From positions 9,164,914 to 9,228,913 of the forward strand of contig NC_135211.1 of NCBI RefSeq assembly GCF_052324685.1: a DNA stretch of 64,000 bases, read 5' to 3'. The notes below the pieces were generated by a model. It had not been told where the DNA came from. It searched no databases and saw only the letters and a list, made by a program, of their open reading frames with translations. The position numbers were made by a program, and so were the translations under genes. Each line of letters starts with the position of its first letter. Within the stretch, counting starts at the first letter, position 1. Origin of the DNA: Brachyhypopomus gauderio (Eukaryota; Chordata; Actinopteri; Gymnotiformes; Hypopomidae). This document shows positions 1 to 52,582 of this stretch, piece by piece.

Positions 1-1424
1 ACTGGGCTGTCTTGGAAGCCCCGGGGTGTCCTGTTCCCACCGACGTGTGTGCCCAGTTGATAAGGGCAGTGCGCTGTGCGGGAGGCACGTACCTGCGGTG
101 CGGTGGACAGCTCGGATGTGGATTAGCTGCAGCAATCGCCCTGTCAATCTCCCAATCCACAGTTCCCAGGAAACACTCAGGGCTTATCACCGGCTCATCA
201 CTGGTGGAGTCCTTACTGCCCGGGAAGGACCTGGATAATGCATCTGCTCGCTGGTTCTTCTCCCCAGGCCGGTAAGTAACCTGGAAGCGGAACCTGGAGA
301 AGAACAGTGACCACCGAGCTTGGCGAGCGTTCATGCGTTTGGTGGTTTTTATGTATTCGAGGTTCTTATGGTCGGTGACGACTGTAAAAGGGTGTCTCGC
401 CCCCTCGAGCCAGTGACGCCACTCGCCGAAAGCCTTGCGCATAGCTAGCAGCTCACGGTCGCGCACACCGTAGTTACGTTCCGCTGCGGTTAGCTTTTTG
501 GAATAGAAGGCTATCGGTCTGAGCGAGCTGTTTTTCTTCGGGCGTTGAGACAGCACAGCACCTACACCAACGTTGGAGGCGTCTATCTCCACTATGAACG
601 GCTTGTTGGGATCGGGTTGGTGTAGTACGGGCGCTTGTATAAAAGCCTTCTTAAGGTCGCCAAACGCCCTCGTAGCCTCTGTTGTCCAGCTCAACTTTTT
701 TCTTCCCCCCCGTAACAGATCATTAAGTGGCCTCGCGATTTGGCTATACCCGCGAATGAACCGCCTGTAAAAATTTGCGAAGCCCAGAAACCTCTGAAGC
801 TCGCACCGCGTGTGAGGCTGAGTCCATTTCACGACCGCATCCACCTTACCTGACTGCATGTGAACGGAGCCTGGCCTGATGGTGTAACCCAGGAAGTTCA
901 CCTCGCAAAGGTGGAACTCGCACTTCTCCAGCTTGCAATATAGGTTATTGCGCAGGAGCGTGCCCAGGACAGCGCGCACATCACGCACGTGTTGGTCCGG
1001 GGTTTGTGAATAGATCAAAATATCATCAATATAGGCGACAACACATCCATTCAAATATTCCCTCAGGACCTCGTTAATAAACGCCTGGAAGAACGACGGA
1101 GCCGACGCCAAGCCGTAGGGCAAGACGCGGTACTCGTAATGCCCGGTCGTAGTGCTAAACGCCGTCTTCCACTCATCCCCCTTGCGAATGCGGATGAGAT
1201 TGTAGGCGCTGCGTAGATCGAGTTTAGTGAAAATTCTCGCTGACCGCAACTGCTCTAGTGCCGAAGGCACCAGCGGCAGCGGGTAGGAGAAATTCACTAA
1301 GAGGGAATTGAGCCCTCGATAATCCACGCATGGCCTCAACCCCCCATCCTTTTTCTTAACGAAAAAGACGCTGGCTGAGGCAGGCGAAGTGGAGGGAGTG
1401 ATATAACCTTGTGCGAGTGCCTCC
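1..1424 (-). pseudogene. gypsy pol fragment: reverse transcriptase, RNase H, integrase start
   Basis: The minus-strand translation carries a classical gypsy reverse transcriptase. The catalytic motif YIDDILIYS is encoded at about 1007-1033, and upstream of it, near 1340-1360, a [14 protein letters not shown]-type motif can be read. An RNase H-like region follows, with [17 protein letters not shown] at about 228-280. A linker ending in TGHPG close to position 12 marks the integrase zinc-binding start. This frame is not continuous with the gag-protease frame: that frame ends at 1425 in a stop, and the pol frame is resumed with a single-frame offset around 1428-1440. It is either an inactivating indel or, less likely, a frameshift site. 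The product would copy element RNA into DNA, but this copy is unlikely to make a complete enzyme. Confidence 0.85.
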
Positions 1425-2957
1425 TTAATTAATATACTGATCCATTACCTTCTCCTCCTCTTGTGACAGCGGGTAGACGCGACCGCGCGGAGGAGTGGAA
1501 CCGGGCTTAAGCGTGACGTGACAGTCCCAAGAACGGTGAGGGGGAAGCTGTGCAGCTTTGGAGGAACTGAAAACCTCTGCCAGGTCCTTATATGGAGCAG
1601 GGATAACCTGGTTGGTCTTGATGTTAGGGCTCTCGATGCTGGTGGATTGAGCAAACACACGGGGAGAGGACCGAGCGCCCCGCAGAGGCGCAACCCATTT
1701 TAACAGGCTTCCCTTATTCCAGTCTATCACCGGGTTGTGCAATCTTAACCAGGGGAGACCTAACGTGAGTGGGTGACGTGTGTAGGGGAGGATGTAAAAA
1801 CTAATCTGCTCCTGGTGACCTTGTATGACTAGTGTAACAGGTGCAGTGCGAAAACATATAAATCCCCCGCCCACAGGCCGTCCGTCCAGTGCCCGCACGC
1901 GTCGAGGTTCCTCCAGTCGTTTCAGTGGCACACCCAGCCGATCCGCTACGCTTCTCCTCATGATGTTCCCCGAGGCTCCCGAGTCCACTAGGGCAAAGAG
2001 ATCCAGAGACACCTCCCCGTGAGACACTGAGACCTGCCACGTCAATAAATTGCCCAATAAGGAATTACTCACCCGAGCCCGTCCCCTCCTGAAGCCGGTG
2101 TTCCTCCGGAGGGGAGCGGTCTCGCCCATCTCCATGGGTTCAGCGGCAGTCGTCTCACGGGGTGGTGCCGACACGGGAACCTGCGGGGTGACGGATAGAG
2201 AAGCGCCTCCCTTTCTCTCTTGGAGGAGTCGGTCAAACGTGATGGCTAGGTGTACCACCTGGTTGAACCCCAGCTCCTCTGGCCGACAGGATAACTCTGC
2301 CTTCAGCTCTGGCTTCAGTCCGGCCAAAAAAACGTCCGTCAGGGCAGCGTCATTCCACCCTGTCCGAGCCGCCAGGGTGCGGAATTCAAGGGCGTGCTCC
2401 GCTGCGCTGCGGCTGCCCTGGCGCAGCTGTAGCAGACTCTGTCCGCACGCTCTCCCTCTCCTAGGATGGTTAAACACCGCCTTGAATTCTTGAATGAAAT
2501 TATCATAGTTAGTAACAAACGGTGCGTTGGCGGTGAGCTGGGCCGCGCCCCAGTCTAAAGCCTTCTCTTTCAGGCGTGACACCACGAACGCTACTTTTTC
2601 TCCGTCCCCGAGCTGCGGACCACTGGCGAAGTGCAGCTGGCACTGCACCAGAAAACCTTCGCAGCGCTCGGGATCCCCTCCATATGGCTCGGGAGGGGCG
2701 ATGAGAGCTCTGGTCGGTCTGGTTCTCTCCGTGGTAGCCTGCACAGATAAACTCTGCATGCAAGTGGTGAGTGTCGCGAGAACCGCACGGAGCTCCTGGA
2801 GCTCCTGCTGCTGCTTACCTAGAGCCCTCCCCTGATGAGCAAGAATCTCCAGAGGGGAGGGCTCCTCGCCTCCGGCCGCTCCAGGCTGCACATTCTGTGA
2901 CGCGGGAACAGAGGCGGCCGAAGGCGAGGGTTGTACAGAATGGTCTTTATTATCCAT
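1425..2957 (-). CDS. gypsy gag-protease reading frame (510 codons)
   Basis: The start codon is at 2957, only about 9 nt inside the LTR edge. The first 80 residues are low-complexity with a short coiled-coil-like [13 protein letters not shown] retrotransposon gag domain follows at about residues 90-230, with [22 protein letters not shown]-like sequence. An aspartic protease with active-site motif DSGASG lies near residues 325-335. The usual CCHC zinc knuckle expected between gag and protease is absent; the sequence runs straight from a short Arg-rich stretch (FRRGRAR) into the protease, suggesting a deletion. The frame stops at the protease-RT junction (QYIN then stop). It encodes element structural protein and protease, not a host function. 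Confidence 0.85.
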
Positions 2958-2966
2958 GCTGTTCAG

Positions 2967-3238
2967 TGTGCAAACAGAAAAGCTTCAATAGCCGAAACAA
3001 GGTACTAGCTACAAGAGAAGCCAGAGAGGTCCAGCGTAGAGCTCTGACGGGGCAATGTGCAGCACTGGACCGAACGACCTGCGGGGTATAAAAGGTGCAC
3101 AACATAATTACCGACAGGTGTTAGTAATGTGGTGACTGGGACCGAGGGAGTGGTCTGGTGCTCGGGGGCGTGTGTGGTGAGGCAGTGCGAGCTGTGGCCT
3201 GCGCCCTCTGGTGGCGACCCGGCCTCCCCACCGTGACA
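2967..3238 (-). repeat. LTR of the truncated gypsy element
   Basis: On the minus strand the segment begins TGTCACGGTGGGG and ends ...TTTGCACA, with gag starting about 9 nt further on. The right edge is clear. The left edge is approximate (2967 or 2969), because the partner LTR is outside the window. The leader between LTR and gag is too short for a normal tRNA-primer site plus leader. I looked for the 11-nt self-complementarity found in the other LTR element of this window and did not find it here. Confidence 0.7.
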
Positions 3239-12699: not shown

Positions 12700-15623
12700 A
12701 TGAAATACTGTGATGGAAGAGAGAGATATGGCTCACCATACGCTAACTACAAAACTGTTCCTGCAAAGAACTCATCTTCTAACATGTATGTATAGCTGTT
12801 ACTGTATTAAGAAATATAGATATACTGCCTTACATGAACCTGACATGTAGGCCCTCTTGATACTGTTAGAAACATTTGTGAGAAAAAACTTTGTGAACTT
12901 TGGAATTATATGATTGGATCTGTGATCTGATCTTTATCTAAGTCAAAATCATACACCATATTAGTCTTGTTTAATAAACACAAAACACATGTACATTACC
13001 GTATCTTGATTGAACAAATAATTTAAGGTATTTTTGGAAAAAGTATGTGAACCAATTCAGGTCTGGGTAGCACTGATCATAGTATATACACTGAGCGACC
13101 ACTAGACTTATTCTAGAGCTGCCATATATAGTAGAATCACTGTACCAGAATTGTGTGTTGTGCCAAATTTTGTCATGAGTGACCTGGTTTTAACAAAGTC
13201 CAAAATCCTTTTAACAACCAACTGGATGTCACACAGAACTACAAAAACATTCAGTGATCAGATGAGATAAAAAATTTTTAAACATGGTATGGAATAATAT
13301 ATTTTTTCCAGATCCTGGGATGTCCATGACTAGATAAAAATAATATCTGGGGACACAATTATTTTGGTATAATGCATTAACTTGTGCAAGAAAAAATACA
13401 ATAACAGAATTTCCCGTTCCTTCCCTTTGTAGATATGTTAACAGGACTCCTTCTACACCATCCCAAATGTCCCGATCTGAGTATGTGAGCTGGATGGGTG
13501 AACCAAACCTTTGGACAAAACCAGGTTTCAGAACCAATAGCGCTATAAGAGATTATGTAGACTGGAGCAGCATGATTTCATCCTCATATTATACAGCAGA
13601 GAATCAACTGTGCCCCAAAGAATGTATTGAATATGCCAATCAACACAGGGGTTTATTACCAATAGAAAGACAGAAAGTCCTAATGGAGAAACATGAAGAA
13701 AGGAGTAAAAAAACATGCCTAATACAGACACATGACTGGGCAAATACGTCGCAAGGTTATCAGGAGATAGGGGCTTGGGCTGATCGTCTTCCCAGGCAGA
13801 AATATCTTGACACAAGAATGCACTGTGCATCCAAGAGAGGACCAGACAGTGAGAGGATTTCACAGCTGACAAGCAAATTAGTGAGTGCAGAGCTTAATCA
13901 ACATCCTCTTGCAAATATATCAGCACCATATAAACATGACAGATTTTATATTGACAACAGAGAGAGGATTCAGCTGGAGATGTGGAAATCACAACACCCT
14001 TACATCTCAATGAAAAAAAGGATTTCAAATCGCAAGGAAAACATGGTCCTACATTCATCTTTCAGCCAACCACCAAGCTATAAACCGCCACCAGCATACA
14101 GTGCTGCAGAAAAATGTCCTGTGAAGGACCATACAGATCAACAACAACTTTTAAGAACACTGACAGAGCCCCTGAGAATTCACCAACCAATAAAAAAAAA
14201 TCAAGATGCTGGTACACTAAAATCACATCAGTTTTCTGAGAAAAGTAAGGTGTCTACACTCACCAAACAGAGTAAACACGAGAAAAGAAGATGTGGAGAA
14301 ACCATTTTTTGCTTAGTCTCTCGAATGGGAGGGCTAACTGGCATGTCCAAATCATCCAGTGAGCTACTTAAATCCAACTTGTTGCCTGTTTTAAAAGTCT
14401 CATCTCTAACAGCAGATGTAGCTAAAGATACCAATATAACTATAAGTTGTAACAGAGAAAAGGAAATTCAAGAAATAGTTGAGCTTGGAGACAAAGTTAA
14501 TTCTGAATGTATACGAAAACAGTCTGAATCCTTAACGCACATCAATGCAAATTATTTTCCCTCAGATAAAATCATAAAAGACATAGGGAGTCTCTGCTTA
14601 ACCCTTCTTAGTAACCACACAGAATACACTTATGGGTCTTATGGGCAAGAGGGTAGTCTTAGTGAGGGAAACTTCTCAGATGAATCACATGGCATGCAGA
14701 ATCTCTACCTAACACTCCATGGGAACAATGAAAATACTAGCAAGTTGTTTGGTCAAGAAGGTACTGCTAATGAGGACAACTTCTTAGGTAAAGCAGATGA
14801 CATACATAATATCTGTCCAATTCATCTGGGGATGTCTGTGGAAAACGCTTGTGGGCTTGGCCAAGAAGGAACTTCCAATGATGGCAACACCTTCAAAATA
14901 GATCATGGAAATCTCCGCTCAGCCCTCCTTGGTAACAGAACGAAAAACTCTAGTGAGGTGTTTGGTCAAGAAAATGCTCGAAACATGGGCCTTCTATTAG
15001 ATGAAGCAGGTGACATACAGAAACTCTGCCCAAACCTATATGTTAATTACACAGAAAACACAAGTATGTCATTTAACCAAGAAAGTAAATCCCAGGAGGG
15101 TAACCCCTCCAAAGAAAAAGATTATGTAAACAATCCGTATCCACCTGTCCTTGGTAAATCAGTGGAAACTGCTAGAGAAGTAATTGGTCAAGAAGGTAAT
15201 CAAGGTAATCAAGTTATTTCAGCTTCAACTCTTTTCCCTCACACAATAAGTAAAAAAGAGTCAGTTTGTATGTCACCTCTTGACTCTCTATCTCACTCTA
15301 TATCTTTCTTGGAATCTCCTCATTTGAGTGAGTCATCTCAGATTAGTGTTTATGGTAAGGTCACTTCTTTGACTTCATCCACATCACCACAGTACATCAA
15401 GGATAGCCAGCATTCCAGATCACTATGGGATGCAGTGAATCGGATTCGCAAACACACTGCTCCTGATTCAGAAAACGAGGAGGAAGAATGTGCTGAATTT
15501 TTGGAAAAAACAGAAAACACAAATACAGAAAAGGATTGGAGTGAAAACACTGTTCTGCAACCACAGGAATCTGTCCAGGAACAGAGGTCAGCTTACTATG
15601 AGAGTAAGCAAAAAAATATATAA
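12700..15623 (+). CDS. JCAD/KIAA1462-like large disordered protein
   Basis: Two coding exons, 12700-12785 and 13433-15623, give 758 residues from MKYCDGRERYGSPYANYK to a TAA stop. The acceptor is strong (ttccctttgtag). Resemblance to JCAD (junctional cadherin-5 associated protein, an endothelial cell-junction protein) rests on the short motif GETIFCLVS near residue 280, the Pro/Tyr-rich FSQPPSYKPPPAYS near 206-219, and a SLWDAVNRIRKH...ENEEEE segment near the C-terminus. There is no enzymatic fold, transmembrane segment or signal peptide. Residues about 384-595 hold six degenerate 34-37-residue repeats. The frame continues after the stop for 78 more codons (see next entry). The family call is tentative; it could be an uncharacterised fish paralogue. 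Confidence 0.55.
14592..15224 (+). repeat. Six coding tandem repeats of 34-37 residues
   Basis: Within the JCAD-like gene successive units start LCLTLLSN, LYLTLHGNN, ICPIHLGM, LRSALLGN, LCPNLYVN and PYPPVLGK. Most continue with ENTS-like sequence and then G/N-QE-(G/S/N), and an acidic segment ending DIHN/DIQK/YVNN. They are diverged in DNA, so the expansion is not recent. Confidence 0.75.
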
Positions 15624-15860: not shown

Positions 15861-16385
15861 TGTTAACTTAACTTATTCAGAGTAAATGAAAGGTTAAAAG
15901 CACTACAGTGCTGGATTCACCTGGGGTTTTATTGAGAGAAGACGTTTCCCAGGCTTTAAAGGTTTAAAGTGAAGTTAAGAGTGTTTGGTCTGACAGAGTG
16001 TCTACTGAATTGGAAATGGACTCTGGAGATTGCCTTTGGATCAGTAATAAGCCAGAACATTAGAGTCTGAAAAGTCCCAGTAATGTTACACAGTCTTTTG
16101 TGTCTTATGAAACAAGCTAATATACTGCATGTCTTGATATGCATTTGGCCACAAATTGGACAAAATGAGCAAATGAGTAAATAAATATTCATTAAACACT
16201 CTCTTATTATTCAATTATAAGTGTATAATCATTTGTTGTTTACAGTTTATGTAAAAATTAGCTTTAAAAACTCCAGCTATGTACCAGTTGTGGCTTTACC
16301 TACATCTGCTCTGCACACCCACAATCAAACCTGGAAATATTGCAGTGGTGGAAGATTTAATGGATGTGAAGCTTAATAGATGATC
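15861..16385. other. Spacer between the JCAD-like gene and the LTR element
   Basis: Presumed 3' UTR and intergenic DNA without a gene. An aataaat occurs near 16178. The last five bases, tgatc (16381-16385), are the left target-site duplication of the LTR element. Confidence 0.5.
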
Positions 16386-17059
16386 TGTAACGTTGGCAGG
16401 GGACAGGTGTGACGCAAATGCAAGTTTAGGGGTTTTAATAAATACAACAAGAATAAACCAACACCAGACAGCACTCTTAAGGGAAACACTCAAAGAGAAC
16501 AAAATCATAAAAGACCACAACGGAACAGGATACAGCGTAACACAAACAATACTACTTGAAACTCTAGGGAGGGGATACAACAAAACGGTATGCTAAACAA
16601 CAGGGAACATGAATACATGAGGACAAACAACTAACAAACCGTGAACACATGAGCAACGTTAAATACAGGGGCAAGGAGATATAAGAGTAACTGGAACACG
16701 ACAGAATAACAAAACAGAGAACGAATGCATTAACTACGTATACATACTGAGGACGGGGAACATACCAACAAACACACAGGCGAAACATATAAGGAACAAA
16801 ACCAACACAAGAGTAGAGGGAGCTAAATCGGACGAGAACCAGAGAAGGGAAGCAAGACAGAGGAGAGACTAGGAACTCACGCACAAGGAATGACCGACAC
16901 GGGGGTAAAACACTAGGGGGTTTTTATACACTGAAAACAAGACGGTGAAACGAGAGTCAGGTGTGTGAGACTGACGACGAGGGCGTGACAGACAGACGGA
17001 TGGACGAATGGGAGCGGGGCTAGGCGGGACCAGGGAGGAGGGAGGGGCTAGACGTGACA
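16386..17059 (-). repeat. 3' LTR (minus orientation) of the non-autonomous element
   Basis: 674 bp starting tgtaacgttgg and ending gacgtgaca on the plus strand. It contains the same TATA (16921-16928) and self-primer sequence (16888-16898) as the other LTR, shifted by 3129 bp. Confidence 0.95.
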
Positions 17060-19351
17060 TAACCCCCCCTCAAGGCGTGCAACTCCGGGGCACGCCAACC
17101 AGGGAGGGCCGGACAGACGCTGGGGACAGAGACACCATAACAGAGGGAAACGAGTGGGCGAGGCCGGGGCAGGGACAACAGACACGGGGCAGGACGGACA
17201 CAATGGCCCGGACACCGGACGCAGGGGAGGACCAGGACAAGGAACGGGTGGCGACGAGGGAACGGGGCCAGACGAGACAGAACGGGGAGCGGGCACAGGG
17301 GGCGGAGCTAAGGGGCTGGACAAAAACTGGGTCAAGGGAACAGGACTGGACTCTCGGGAAGGCTGGGACACAGAGGCAAACAGACGGAGGACGACGGAGA
17401 CAGGGACGGGAACAAAGTGGGTGACTACCTGGGGAACAGAGACTGGCACAGGGACATGGAGGACACCACCAAGGACGGACACAGGGACAGGCACGCGGAC
17501 GCGGACAGACACGCACACAGGAACGGGGACCAACAGGAAGCCAGGGAGGGGACAGGGCAAAAAAGGGAACACAGGTGAGTGTAAAACAGGGTTAACAGGA
17601 GGGACAGTGTCCGGACAGTTCAGCAAAAAACCAGCTCCAGGCCCACAGGCGGGCAAAGCAGTCACTGCGGGGGCTGGTGTGAATTGAGGAGAGTCCAGGG
17701 GAGCCGAGGAAGGGTCCAGGGGTACCGGCAGGTCTGGCTGAGGAACAGCGGAGACCGGCAAAGGGGCCACAGGGACCGGTCGACAGGCAGCGGGAACAGG
17801 CGGGGCCCGCTGGCGGGGAGCGGGAACAGGCGGGGCCCGCTGGCGGGGAGCGGAAACAGGCGGGGCCTGCTGGCGGGGAGCGGAAACAGGCGGGGCCCGC
17901 TGGCGGGGAGCGGAAACAGGCGGGGCCCGCTGGCGGGGAGCGGAAACAGGCGGGGCCCGCTGGCGGGGAGCGGAAACAGGCGGGGCCCGCTGGCGGGGAG
18001 CGGAAACAGGCGGGGCCCGCTGGCGGGGAGCGGAAACAGGCGGGGCCCGCTGGCGGGGAGCGGAAACAGGCGGGGCCCGCTGGCGGGGAGCGGAAACAGG
18101 CGGGGCCCGCTGGCGGGGAGCGGAAACAGGCGGGGCCCGCTGGCGGGGAGCGGAAACAGGCGGGGCCCGCTGGCGGGGAGCGGAAACAGGCGGGGCCCGC
18201 TGGCGGGGAGCGGAAACAGGCGGGGCCCGCTGGCGGGGAGCGGAAACAGGCGGGGCCCGCTGGCGGGGAGCGGGAGCAGGCGGCGTCGCCGAGCAGACGT
18301 CATCGGCGGGCGTGACCGCCGGAGCGACGTCATCGGGTGGCCCGGTCACCGCACAGACGTCATCAGGGGGCGGAGCCTCCGGGCCGACGTCATCAGGGGG
18401 CGGAGCCTCCGGGCCGACGTCGTCGGCGGGCGTGACCGCCGGGCCGACGTCGTCGGAGGGCGTGTCCACCGGGCCGACGTCGTCGGAGGGCGTGTCCACC
18501 GGGCCGACGTCGTCGGAGGGCGTGTCCACCGGGCCGACGTCGTCGGAGGGCGTGTCCACCGGGCCGACGTCGTCGGAGGGCGTGTCCACCGGGCCGACGT
18601 CGTCGGAGGGCGTGTCCACCGGGCCGACGTCGTCGGAGGCAGGGACGGCCGTGGCGACGTCGTCGGAGGCAGGGACGGCCGTGGCGACGTCGTCGGAGGC
18701 AGGGACGGCCGTGGCGACGTCGTCGGAGGCAGGGACGGCCGTGGCGACGTCGTCGGAGGCAGGGACGGCCGTGGCGACGTCGTCGGAGGCAGGGACGGCC
18801 GTGGCGACGTCGTCGGAGGCAGGGACGGCCGTGGCGACGTCGTCGGAGGCAGGGACGGCCGTGGCAGCGTCGTCGTGAGGTGTGGAGGCCTGGGCGTCGC
18901 TGGTGGTCGTAGAGACCTGGATAGGCGGAGAGAGTTTGGAGGCTGGGGAGGCATTAGTGTGGGGGACAGAAGAGGGGAAATGTACCCTTTGGTCCATACT
19001 TCTCCCCGCATGTCCGATGGGTTCGTCCAGTTGGGCCCTGAGGGGAGGACACCCTCGGTCACAGTCACCCCCAAAAAATCCTTTGGGGAGCACCCCCGTA
19101 GCATGTCTCCTAATCTGATGGGAGGAGGGCTGTACAGCGACACCAGCAAACCTGGTGCGCATGTACTTACAAAACCCTTCCACTGTTAAGGCTTCAGTCA
19201 TGCGCTTGGACAATACTAAGTTCGCCCACTCAAGCGCTTTGGCCTTTAGGAGAGAGCGCATAAATAAAACCAAGACATCCTGTGGTGGCGGAGGGCAAGT
19301 TAACAATCGGATATAGAGTGTGCATTGCATAATATATTTGTCAGCAGGCAT
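17048..19351 (-). CDS. Gag-like protein expanded with 10-residue repeats (767 codons)
   Basis: The frame starts at MPADKYIMQCTLYIRLL, which matches the middle of a Ty3/gypsy gag domain (YIMQCTLYI ... VLFMRSLLKAKALEWAN ... FCKYMRTRFAG). After about 100 residues of gag it becomes Pro/Ala-rich and disordered: eight copies of a DDVATAVPAS unit, six of DDVGPVDTPS, further related units, then sixteen copies of an APPVSAPRQR-type unit and a Pro/Val-rich tail ending at the LTR edge. The true gag start is probably the ATG at 19512 in another frame (next entry). No zinc knuckle or protease is present. Codon use is driven by the GC-rich repeats. Role inferred: particle protein of a non-autonomous element. 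Confidence 0.75.
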   Translation of the reverse strand: MPADKYIMQCTLYIRLLTCPPPPQDVLVLFMRSLLKAKALEWANLVLSKRMTEALTVEGFCKYMRTRFAGVAVQPSSHQIRRHATGVLPKGFFGGDCDRGCPPLRAQLDEPIGHAGRSMDQRVHFPSSVPHTNASPASKLSPPIQVSTTTSDAQASTPHDDAATAVPASDDVATAVPASDDVATAVPASDDVATAVPASDDVATAVPASDDVATAVPASDDVATAVPASDDVATAVPASDDVGPVDTPSDDVGPVDTPSDDVGPVDTPSDDVGPVDTPSDDVGPVDTPSDDVGPVDTPSDDVGPAVTPADDVGPEAPPPDDVGPEAPPPDDVCAVTGPPDDVAPAVTPADDVCSATPPAPAPRQRAPPVSAPRQRAPPVSAPRQRAPPVSAPRQRAPPVSAPRQRAPPVSAPRQRAPPVSAPRQRAPPVSAPRQRAPPVSAPRQRAPPVSAPRQRAPPVSAPRQRAPPVSAPRQRAPPVSAPRQRAPPVSAPRQQAPPVSAPRQRAPPVPAPRQRAPPVPAACRPVPVAPLPVSAVPQPDLPVPLDPSSAPLDSPQFTPAPAVTALPACGPGAGFLLNCPDTVPPVNPVLHSPVFPFLPCPLPGFLLVPVPVCVSVRVRVPVPVSVLGGVLHVPVPVSVPQVVTHFVPVPVSVVLRLFASVSQPSRESSPVPLTQFLSSPLAPPPVPAPRSVSSGPVPSSPPVPCPGPPLRPVSGPLCPSCPVSVVPAPASPTRFPLLWCLCPQRLSGPPWLACPGVARLEGGLCHV
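17060..17073 (-). promoter_or_regulatory. Polypurine tract
   Basis: On the minus strand TTGAGGGGGGGTTA sits directly upstream of the 3' LTR, the place where plus-strand DNA synthesis is primed in LTR elements. It fixes the orientation. Confidence 0.75.
17791..18270. repeat. Tandem array A: sixteen 30-bp units
   Basis: Exactly sixteen 30-bp units, nearly identical, each containing cggaaacaggcggggcccgc. It encodes one APPVSAPRQR-like decapeptide per unit on the minus strand. The first two and one internal unit carry single-base variants. Confidence 0.95.
18301..18870. repeat. Tandem array B/C: nineteen 30-bp units in three types
   Basis: Five diverged units (18301-18450) are followed by six identical units of one type (18451-18630, containing gtgtccaccgggccgacgt) and eight nearly identical units of another (18631-18870, containing cagggacggccgtggcgacgt). 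All are in a strict 30-bp register and share the boundary cgacgt/cgtcgg. Homogeneity within blocks suggests recent expansion. Confidence 0.95.
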
Positions 19352-19512
19352 GGTCTCCCCATCGTATTCCTCAGGGCAGGGGGCCAGCGAAGGTCTTTGA
19401 CCAGTAAGGTCTGCAGGTTATCCAGATTGGATAAGAAATAATCCTTTTCCTCAGGAACCAAGGGACTGCTAGAGGTAAAAGACTCCTGCTGCGTCATACT
19501 ATGGTCGGTCAT
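19300..19512 (-). CDS. Gag N-terminal frame starting inside the primer-binding site
   Basis: ATG at 19512-19510 lies 3 nt inside the 5' LTR edge and opens MTDHSMTQQESFTSSSPLVPEEKDYFLSNLDNLQTLL, a typical acidic gag N-terminus. The frame leaves the gag-like sequence near 19370-19385 at a C-rich run (GGCCCCCTGCCC on the minus strand); the gag continuation is in the frame of the 767-codon ORF. A one-base indel is the simplest explanation. Confidence 0.6.
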   Translation of the reverse strand: MTDHSMTQQESFTSSSPLVPEEKDYFLSNLDNLQTLLVKDLRWPPALRNTMGRPCLLTNILCNAHSISDC

Positions 19513-19514
19513 TC
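19504..19514 (-). promoter_or_regulatory. Self-priming primer-binding site
   Basis: The 11 nt immediately inside the 5' LTR (minus strand GAATGACCGAC) are perfectly complementary to 11 nt inside the LTR (minus strand GTCGGTCATTC, 20027-20017), which lie just where the TATA box predicts the 5' end of the RNA. Matching stops after exactly 11 nt on both sides. This is the arrangement known from Tf1/sushi elements, whose RNA folds back to prime its own reverse transcription. Confidence 0.8.
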
Positions 19515-20188
19515 TGTAACGTTGGCAGGGGACAGGTGTGACGCAAATGCAAGTTTAGGGGTTTTAATAAATACAACAAGAATAAACCAACACCAGACAG
19601 CACTCTTAAGGGAAACACTCAAAGAGAACAAAATCATAAAAGACCACAACGGAACAGGATACAGCGTAACACAAACAATACTACTTGAAACTCTAGGGAG
19701 GGGATACAACAAAACGGTATGCTAAACAACAGGGAACATGAATACATGAGGACAAACAACTAACAAACCGTGAACACATGAGCAACGTTAAATACAGGGG
19801 CAAGGAGATATAAGAGTAACTGGAACACGACAGAATAACAAAACAGAGAACGAATGCATTAACTACGTATACATACTGAGGACGGGGAACATACCAACAA
19901 ACACACAGGCGAAACATATAAGGAACAAAACCAACACAAGAGTAGAGGGAGCTAAATCGGACGAGAACCAGAGAAGGGAAGCAAGACAGAGGAGAGACTA
20001 GGAACTCACGCACAAGGAATGACCGACACGGGGGTAAAACACTAGGGGGTTTTTATACACTGAAAACAAGACGGTGAAACGAGAGTCAGGTGTGTGAGAC
20101 TGACGACGAGGGCGTGACAGACAGACGGATGGACGAATGGGAGCGGGGCTAGGCGGGACCAGGGAGGAGGGAGGGGCTAGACGTGACA
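19515..20188 (-). repeat. 5' LTR (minus orientation) of the non-autonomous element
   Basis: 674 bp, same length and sequence as the left LTR wherever checked. On the minus strand U3 runs 20188-20028 (161 bp), and transcription probably starts at 20027, so R plus U5 are about 513 bp. Confidence 0.95.
20050..20057 (-). promoter_or_regulatory. TATA box of the LTR promoter
   Basis: TATAAAAA on the minus strand begins exactly 30 nt upstream of 20027, the first base of the 11-nt self-primer sequence. That is the expected spacing from TATA box to transcription start. Confidence 0.7.
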
Positions 20189-20193
20189 TGATC

Positions 20194-24537: not shown

Positions 24538-44548
<20,011 letters not shown>

Positions 44549-51010: not shown

Positions 51011-52582
51011 TACTGTTCAAATGTTTGGGGTCACTTAGAAATGTTCTTATTTTTGAAAGAAAAGCAGTTTTTTTTTCCATTTAGCTAACATTAAATGCAT
51101 CAAAAATACACTCTATACATTATTAATGTGGTAAATGACTATTCTAGCTGTAAACGTCTGGTTTTTAATGCAATATCTACATAGATGTATGGAGACCCAT
51201 TTCCAACAACCATCACTCCAGTGTTCTAATGGTACATTGTGTTTGCTAACTGTGTAAGGAGGCTATTGGATATTTAGAAAAACCCTTGTGCAAGTAGGTT
51301 AGCACAGCTGAAAACAGTTTTGCTGATTAGAGAAGCTATACAACTGACCTTCCTTTAAGCTAGTTGAGAATCTGGAGCATTACAATTGTTGGTTCGATTA
51401 AACTCACAAAATGGCCAGAAAAAGACAACTTTCAATTGAAACTCGACAGTCTATTCTTGTTCTGAGAAATGAAGTCTATTCCATGCGAGACATTGCCAAG
51501 AAACTGAAGATTTCCTACAATGGTGTGTACTACTCCCTTCAGAGGAGAGCACAGACAGGCTCTAACCAGAGTAGAAGGAGAAGTGGAAGGCCCCGCTGCA
51601 CAACTGAGCAAGAAGACAAGTACATTAGAGTCTCCAGTTTGAGAAATCGACACCTCACAGGTCCTCAACTGGCAGCTTCATTAAATAGTACCCGCAAAAC
51701 GCCAGTGTAAACGTTTACAGTGAAGAGGCGACTCCGGGATGCTGGCCTTCAGGGCAGAGTGGCAAAGAAAAATCCATATCTGGCTAATAAAAGAAAAAGA
51801 TTAATATGGGCAAAAGAACACAGACATTGGACAGAGGAAGATTGGAAAAAAGTGGACAGATGAATCAAAGTTTGAGGTGTTTGGATCACACAGACGAACA
51901 TTTGTGAGACGCAGAACAACTGAAAAGATGCTGGAAGAGTGCCTGACACCATCTGTCAAACATGGTGGAGGTAATGTGATGGTCTGGGGTTGCTTTGGTG
52001 CTGGTAAAGTGGGAGATTTGAACAAGGTAAAAGGGATTTTGAATAAGGAAGGCTATCACTCCATTTTGCAACACCATGCCATACCCTGTGGACAGCGCTT
52101 GATTGGAGCCAATTTCATCCTGCAACAGGACAATGACCCAAAGCACACCTCCAAATTATGCACAAACTATTTGGAGAAGAAGCAGGCAGCTGGTGTTTTA
52201 TCGGTAATGGAGTGGCCAGCGCAGTCACCAGATCTCAACCCCATTGAGCTGTTGTGGGAGCATCTTGACCGTATGGTACGAAAAAAGTGTCCATCAACCC
52301 AATCAAACTTGTGGGAGCGGCTTCTGGAAGCATGGGGTGAAATTTCTCCAGATTACCTCAGCAAATTAACAGCTAGAATGCCAAAGGTCTGCAATGCTGT
52401 AATTGCTGCTAAGGGAGCATTCTTTGACGAAAGCAAAGATTAAAGTAGAAAATTATTTCAAATAAAAAAAAAAACATTATTTCTATTCATTTTGCAACTC
52501 ATTTGATAAATAAAAGTATGAGATTTCAGGGCAAAACACAAAATTGTCTAGGTGACCCCAAACTTTTGAACGGTAGTGTGTG
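51004..52582 (+). mobile_element. Tc1-superfamily transposon with DD38E transposase
   Basis: Terminal inverted repeats cacacactactgttcaaatg (left) and, inverted, cacacactaccgttcaaaag (right) surround one transposase gene. Both flanks are (TA)n-rich microsatellites, fitting insertion at TA. The transposase is broken (next entry). Length about 1.58 kb fits the superfamily. Confidence 0.9.
51411..52443 (+). pseudogene. Tc1-type transposase, DD38E, broken
   Basis: The first frame, 51411-51710, encodes the paired-like DNA-binding half: helix-turn-helix MRDIAKKLKISYNGVYYSLQ and an AT-hook-like RRSGRPR. It ends in a premature stop at 51708. The second, 51877-52443, encodes the catalytic half: GGGNVMVWGCF, QQDNDPKHTSK with the second catalytic Asp, and SPDLNPIELLWEHL with the catalytic Glu. 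A one- or two-base deletion near 51850 at the first-Asp motif shifts frame. The spacing between the second Asp and the Glu is 38 residues, not the usual 34, because of a longer YLEKKQAAGVLSVMEWP segment. DD38E spacing is characteristic of the described Intruder family. Confidence 0.88.

Follow-up and report, generated by a model that had tools for sequence, protein, structure and literature searches.

How does an LTR element in which no enzyme genes are seen start the synthesis of its DNA, and what does its only open reading frame (ORF) contribute? The question is raised by positions 16386-20188 (minus strand) of the window, that is, the stretch of 64,000 nucleotides analysed here, which contain a Ty3/gypsy-type LTR element of Brachyhypopomus gauderio.

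Anatomy of the element

The features of the window copy are as follows (coordinates are those of the window):
16381-16385, plus strand: left target-site duplication, TGATC, matching the right flank over 5 bp
16386-17059, minus strand: 3' LTR, 674 bp
16888-16898, minus strand: self-primer 11-mer, 3' LTR copy, same 11-mer as 20017-20027
17048-19417, minus strand: continuing frame, stop to stop, covering what remains of the capsid-lobe fragment, both repeat types (acidic and basic) and a proline-rich tail
17063-17071, minus strand: polypurine tract (PPT) GAGGGGGGG ahead of the 3' LTR
17789-18283, minus strand: 30-bp array coding for PRQR repeats of 10 aa, basic (+31 net over 160 aa)
18289-18880, minus strand: 30-bp array coding for DDV repeats of 10 aa, acidic (-48 net over 200 aa)
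19300-19512, minus strand: beginning of the Gag-fragment ORF (MTD...TQQ...), whose frame breaks about 43 codons in in the window copy
19490-19495, minus strand: leader GACGCA (PBS-flanking stem, 3' arm)
19503, minus strand: near-invariant C at LTR+12
19504-19514, minus strand: PBS of 11 nt that immediately follows the 5' LTR and includes the ATG of the ORF
19515-20188, minus strand: 5' LTR, TGTCACG...GTTACA, 674 bp
19540-19545, minus strand: TGCGTC close to the end of the LTR (PBS-flanking stem, 5' arm)
20017-20027, minus strand: candidate self-primer in the 5' LTR, exactly complementary to the PBS and putatively the first 11 nt of R, with the RNA 5' end
20050-20057, minus strand: TATAAAAA box, located 30 nt ahead of the self-primer
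20189-20193, plus strand: right target-site duplication, TGATC, matching the left flank over 5 bp

The locus thus combines TG...CA LTRs, a PBS, a PPT and a target duplication of fixed length, as an LTR retrotransposon does, and its two LTRs are identical (0/674 mismatches). The 11 nt that follow the 5' LTR recur once in the LTR as their reverse complement, at LTR position 162, with the match ending after 11 nt on both sides, and TATAAAA begins exactly 30 nt upstream of this putative self-primer; both observations, made in the initial annotation of the locus, are confirmed in the window copy. Inspection of the sequence for a tRNA-type PBS revealed no TGG near the LTR end. An Rfam search produced 0 matches, as did the search of viral contigs with one exact pattern. 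The window also holds another gypsy element, at 1-3238, the 3' LTR of which lies outside the window; comparison of its pre-gag stretch with its TATA region showed no exact complement of at least 7 nt.

A young family with a conserved self-primer

The element is a recent copy of a young, multi-copy, non-autonomous family with the LTR ends TGTCACG...ACGTTACA. Across the genome, the self-primer was detected in its U3 context 212 times (0 for the reversed-pattern control), the LTR-end/PBS junction 191 times (control 2) and the PPT/LTR junction 192 times (control 0), and the PBS-to-PPT span is below 2.5 kb in all 37 matched pairs; L019 and L023 were excluded as chance PBS matches, and the LTR comparison for L010 was trimmed because its 5' LTR begins 28 nt inside the start of the 3' LTR. 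No tRNA-primed relative was seen. Among 28 family loci, four lack the self-primer upstream; 22 were retained for comparison, these four and the rearranged L041 and L045 being excluded. The R sequence around the self-primer diverges while the self-primer itself is kept. The switch points of mosaic copies fall at the self-primer; U3 and R modules are shuffled.

Ten full-length copies were chosen by a U3 18-mer, with the PBS disregarded. All ten keep the PBS core AATGACCGAC, which, together with the lack of TGG near the LTR end, bears out the self-primed cis architecture postulated earlier, and eight of the ten share the same 11-nt PBS. In this set, L017 has T at PBS nucleotide 1, 10 pairs and a TATA spacing of 27, and L012 has A at PBS nucleotide 1 and a self-primer damaged in both LTRs. 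The 30-nt spacing is common to all 23 exact self-primer contexts examined; in the family, this spacing and the exact 11-nt match are usual, not universal. The T-variant of the PBS, present at 39 places, leaves only 10 pairs. A compensatory change was rejected, the matching self-primer ending in A being no more common (2 matches) than the controls (1 and 2), which counts against copying of 11 nt in every cycle. These 10-bp variants suggest that the RNase H cut, which in the Tf1/sushi group lies between bases 11 and 12, may fall after base 10 as well.

The PBS is flanked by a stem (TGCGTC/GACGCA) in 22 of 22 copies; elsewhere, the 3' arm reads GATGCA (L070, L012 and 4 of the 39 T-variant places). 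A third duplex, as in the Tf1 'pretzel', is not supported: in none of 12 distinct contexts did the comparison with shuffled flanks reach P 0.05 (range 0.054-0.63). A further point against the model is that the predicted primer/PBS helix falls to about 0.7 when 100 nt of RNA beyond the PBS are included and is lost (0.00) when 200 nt are. That the 11-nt complement is a chance match or a by-product of shared repeats, with a tRNA as the actual primer, is hardly credible: a random 674-nt LTR holds such a complement with a probability of only about 1.5e-4 (estimated from 20,000 Markov LTRs and analytically) and, although the genome contains many LTRs, the family-wide conservation of the self-primer in 212 contexts despite diverging R flanks refutes a chance origin, the lack of TGG and the flanking stem of all 22 copies pointing the same way.

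The Gag-fragment ORF

The family ORF, which starts at the ATG inside the PBS, derives from one lobe of a Gag capsid and also encodes acidic and basic repeats. ORFs of 640-750 aa are present in 18 of 30 rows, some rows representing one element twice, and the CCHC motif is absent from all 30 ORF rows, several of which are shortened by stops. Foldseek alone yielded no match for the lobe below E 0.5; the VIA-align rows re-examine the 123 chains that Foldseek itself had supplied, and middling Z scores arise by chance for helical bundles. A sequence search of solved structures with the lobe alignment gave 0 matches.

The elements could be plain deletion derivatives with an inert, decaying ORF, and the frame breaks in the window copy and several others, the freely varying repeat arrays and the fact that GC-rich repeats are open in several frames would fit such decay. 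We nevertheless regard it as improbable. The median dN/dS is 0.14-0.36 in the five bins with pS above 0.03, values biased downwards by the open-frame and motif filter through which 22 of the 28 copies passed (L047 failed the motif filter, no stop being involved); 35 of the 231 pairs, with pS of at least 0.8, fell outside the bins. Changes in close pairs are in excess at third positions (160 of 278, in the 18 copies left after dropping the frame-broken L022 and duplicates). The long ORFs also speak against decay, as does the order of lobe, acidic repeats and basic repeats, which is the same in divergent subfamilies. Taken together, the ORF looks to be under constraint. The initial annotation held that the element keeps cis signals and lacks all enzymes; no enzyme genes were indeed seen, but the idea of an element consisting of signals only does not survive the finding of this ORF.

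Enzymes and an autonomous partner

Reverse transcriptase (RT) and integrase of the Tf1/sushi group belong to the chromovirus tree, usually with a chromodomain. In the present family no pol was seen: no match to RT was detected in any of 60 loci (L009-L068), 20 of which extend about 6 kb past the PBS. The search for an autonomous partner with the same ends compared 117 PBS places (95, with about 18 expected from the control, and 22 one-mismatch places) and 100 listed PPT places of 192 with 150 listed SH3 matches of 1765 candidates and 150 listed DUF4939 matches of 1339. No adjacency was found among these listed gag and integrase matches: none of the 150 listed DUF4939 gag matches adjoins the listed PBS or PPT places of the family, and the only listed Tf2-1-type integrase (SH3) near a family PBS lies 8.1 kb downstream and was judged unrelated since matched family spans are shorter than 2.5 kb. 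As a positive control, the same search recovered 3 gag-to-SH3 pairs at about 3.5 kb.

A proposed life cycle

Very probably, this is a young non-autonomous Ty3/gypsy-type family that is self-primed like Tf1/sushi; it would be mobilised by a helper, and its own one-lobe ORF product may serve as a cis packaging adaptor. RNA polymerase II would most likely start at window position 20027; a TATA box lies 30 nt upstream of this putative RNA start, and the mosaic switch points fall at the self-primer. The first 10-11 nt of the RNA would then pair with the PBS beside the 5' LTR, aided by the conserved flanking stem, the RT/RNase H of the helper would free the primer, and its integrase would join the TG...CA ends to a target of 5 bp. 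The one-lobe protein might join helper particles through the lobe and bind the element RNA through the basic array.

Ty1 p22 is an internal Gag product, and the capsid-lobe protein could likewise be an interferer that poisons helper particles, not a packaging adaptor. We consider this unlikely: a shared fold does not show function, the encoding element would gain nothing from interference alone, whereas adaptor action in cis would favour it, and the basic array suggests RNA binding. The sequence identity of the lobe to the capsid-fragment restriction factors Ty1 p22 and Drt2 is 13-17%; Drt2 is, by its entry title, an endogenised gene, whereas the lobe protein is encoded by the only ORF of the element.

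The near-invariant C after the PBS

Of 106 places examined, 105 have C as the base that follows the PBS, and element C91:567166 has A. Pairing is excluded as the cause since U3 has T at position -1 (at least 212 contexts, with another base in 2) and offers the C no partner. One locus, L066, is a snap-back integrant in which the PBS plus C is joined to U3 from -2, the one such junction found in the genome with the pattern used.

Selection on the codon or on RNA structure, or shared ancestry, probably keeps this C: it opens codon 4 of the ORF, one element does have A, and the snap-back junction could have taken its C from the DNA, the leader already having one. On the other side, the amino acid at codon 4 varies (H, Q, L or P), with the first base alone fixed, and pairing gives no explanation. 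We offer, tentatively and as an unproven proposal, the possibility that this C is a copy, made by RT, of the 5' cap (m7G) on the self-primer RNA. In plus-strand synthesis, RT would read the short RNA primer and then its cap, placing C there, so that each replication cycle would rewrite position 12 to C and mark the exact transcription start; L066 would be a trapped intermediate whose plus strand stopped at PBS plus C before going on to copy U3 from -2.

Relation to known systems

Self-priming has been demonstrated for Tf1 of fission yeast and implicated in vertebrate elements (PMC4600332), and in the Tf1/sushi group (S. pombe Tf1, Tj1, pufferfish sushi-ichi, Tcn1) the RNA complements the PBS with its first 11 nt (PMC7175516, PMC10085805, PMC4600332 and PMC6317226). 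As in that group, the present family has a PBS adjoining the 5' LTR that is complementary to the putative 5' end of the RNA over 11 nt, and a stem between PBS-flanking and LTR sequence. Unlike Tf1/sushi, the family was seen without pol, its PBS contains the start codon of the ORF, 10- and 11-nt pairing coexist, and the third duplex is not supported. The TR-GAG elements of plants (PMC8704663) likewise have LTRs and a single gag-type ORF, lack pol and are mobilised in trans. In contrast to these, the family encodes one capsid lobe with two charged repeat arrays, not a whole Gag protein, shows no CCHC in the ORFs examined, and has a self-primer and an animal host. It differs from the sushi-derived PEG10/RTL Gag proteins in being a mobile multi-copy element, not a host gene.

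Thanks to the 10/11-nt variants, shuffled U3/R modules and trapped snap-back of this family, its genomic DNA gives a reading of primer length, transcription start and strand transfer; if the cap idea is true, DNA alone could reveal where transcription of self-primed elements begins. A gag-only element with a constrained one-lobe capsid protein suggests a testable protein dependence on the helper.

Self-complementary primer and primer-binding sites

Features of the window
16386-20188, reverse strand: LTR retrotransposon with an identical LTR pair (16386-17059 and 19515-20188)
1-3238, reverse strand: a distinct Ty3/gypsy element that looks autonomous; its gag matches Retrotrans_gag and protease, and reverse transcriptase (RT) was recognized by eye
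13344-15623, forward strand: 759-codon open frame, possibly a host exon
36577-38427, reverse strand: long ORFs that, by eye, look like the RT of a non-LTR retrotransposon
51805-52443, forward strand: ORF that, by eye, looks like the remnant of a Tc1/mariner transposase

The LTRs of the element at 16386-20188 are 674 bp each and free of differences, with TGATC at both outer ends. As the initial annotation had proposed, the 11 nt that directly follow the 5' LTR (the primer-binding site, PBS) pair exactly with LTR positions 162-172, the putative self-primer, and matching ends there; the claimed promoter spacing also holds, with TATAAAA beginning 30 nt upstream of the LTR 11-mer. A random LTR would contain such an 11-mer with a probability of about 1.5e-4. 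A search for TGG near the LTR end found none, and the element thus is without a tRNA-type PBS. The gypsy element at 1-3238 is truncated by the window edge, with an LTR start at 3238; the surroundings of its TATA showed no exact self-primer complement of at least 7 nt. Tf1 is known to prime itself, and self-priming has also been reported for the Tf1/sushi group (PMC7175516, PMC10085805, PMC4600332, PMC6317226), and gag-only LTR elements are known from plants (PMC8704663); in the titles and abstract openings searched on self-primed or non-autonomous gag elements and cap copying, the combination is not described, the subscription literature being mostly beyond reach.

A young family in the host genome

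Searches of the host genome (796.5 Mb, 840 contigs) yielded 106 matches to an 18-nt piece of U3 (control 0), 212 occurrences of the self-primer within its context (control 0), 191 matches to the LTR-end/PBS junction with at most 2 mismatches (control 2) and 192 to the junction of the polypurine tract (PPT) and the LTR (control 0). The search for full-length relatives in the same genome, suggested as a check, delimited 23 distinct units, with LTRs of 611-754 bp and internal parts of 1749-2455 bp. The LTR pairs are mismatch-free in 12 of the 23, with 9 mismatches in one pair, and perfect 5-bp target duplications flank all 18 units outside tandem arrays; given this LTR identity and the intact duplications, the family is young. 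The tandem arrays with common LTRs (L062, C3:27453038-27458457; L063/L064, C3:38698292-38706173) each have one matching outer-flank pair. At locus L045 (C5:18266738), which is rearranged, LTR and PBS lead straight into a second U3 start and then repeat sequence; two oppositely oriented LTR pieces 1.3 kb apart (C16:6211966(+)/6213237(-)) are a possible second rearranged copy.

Conservation of the self-primer and the leader

Among the first 30 PBS matches examined, 2 were chance and 28 family loci, and the self-primer lies upstream of the PBS in 24 of these 28 (23 exact, one with one mismatch) and is absent in 4. Ten full-length copies chosen by the U3 18-mer irrespective of the PBS make a fairer sample: 8 carry the 11-nt PBS, the first PBS nucleotide is T in L017 and A in L012, and AATGACCGAC followed by C is kept in all ten. 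Both LTRs of L012 carry a damaged self-primer. Across subfamilies the 11-mer is constant and the R sequence behind it divergent.

In 22/22 copies TGCGTC lies close to the end of the LTR and GACGCA lies in the leader; the intervening sequence is variable, and the two motifs fit a stem flanking the PBS; a few copies outside the 22 have GATGCA instead of GACGCA. In the predicted fold of the 573-nt leader the mean primer-PBS pairing probability is 0.91; primer shuffles abolish this pairing (12/12) and middle shuffles retain it (12/12). The predicted helix stands at ~0.7 with 100 nt past the PBS and is lost with 200 nt. The third duplex of a 'pretzel' leader, expected from PMC10085805, was no better in the family leaders than in shuffled flanks.

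Primer length and position 12

T occupies PBS nucleotide 1 at 39 places in the genome, spread over many leader types, leaving 10 pairs with the self-primer. The self-primer that would pair with this variant, with A as its last base, was not found in the genome above control, and L017 combines the T-variant PBS with an ordinary self-primer. With a constant 11-nt RNA primer, plus-strand copying would turn T into G, so at least part of the priming probably uses a 10-nt primer.

G-variants with CGTTACA have, without exception, C at position 12, directly behind the PBS (at least 67 such places, counted among the 100 junction matches listed), as do 38 of 39 T-variants; positions 13-17 are variable. 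At position -1, U3 carries T in 212 contexts and a different base in 2; the C is therefore not explained by pairing. Reverse transcriptases are able to append a C where a capped template ends. One of the two contexts with a different U3 base, L066 (C4:10467237-10474250; junction C4:10473237), consists of LTR, PBS plus C and an inverted U3; its arms measure ~172 nt, and ACAGG stands at either flank. This integrant resembles a plus-strand strong-stop DNA whose end turned back onto its own self-primer; the search pattern used found no other such snap-back in the genome. Its C sits where a copied cap would be, which is support and not proof for cap copying, since the leader also has C there.

Coding capacity

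The lack of enzymes was initially noted for the window copy; RT was sought without a match in 60 loci (L009-L068), of which L049-L068 extend ~6 kb past the PBS, and the PBS-to-PPT distance is 0.92-2.45 kb in 37/37 matched spans. In the search for a helper, none of the listed DUF4939 gag matches adjoins the family, and one Tf2-1-type integrase match among those listed is in range, 8.1 kb from a family PBS.

An ATG within the PBS opens MTD...TQ in 26 of 28 family loci, the exceptions being the rearranged L041 and L045. An ORF of 640-750 aa spans the internal region in 18 of 30 ORF rows (some rows are the same element twice) and encodes one Gag capsid lobe, acidic DDV repeats, basic PRQR repeats and a proline-rich tail, in the same order across divergent subfamilies. 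The frame at 16386-20188 is broken after ~43 codons; other copies with an unbroken frame exist. Thirteen of 14 lobes match DUF4939 (best E 5.6e-6, which for the member shown does not reach the Pfam cut-off), hhalign of the lobe against the window's other Gag gives 82.7%, and in the AlphaFold model, whose best structural neighbours are capsid domains, block-mean pLDDT is 82-96 over residues 51-130. The median dN/dS ratios are 0.14-0.36 across the five bins with pS > 0.03, and the nearest bin has 0.08; substitutions by codon position are 65/53/160 (16 close, non-independent pairs).

Recombination between U3 and R

Comparison of 300 pairs among 25 LTRs indicates that U3 and R are shuffled between family copies, with the self-primer as the switch point. 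In the extreme pairs, the window 5' LTR and L015 agree in U3 (1.00) and differ in R (0.31); L010 and L025 agree in R (0.99) and differ in U3 (0.79). These switch points suggest that R begins at the self-primer, and the shuffling would fit first-strand transfer between co-packaged RNAs.
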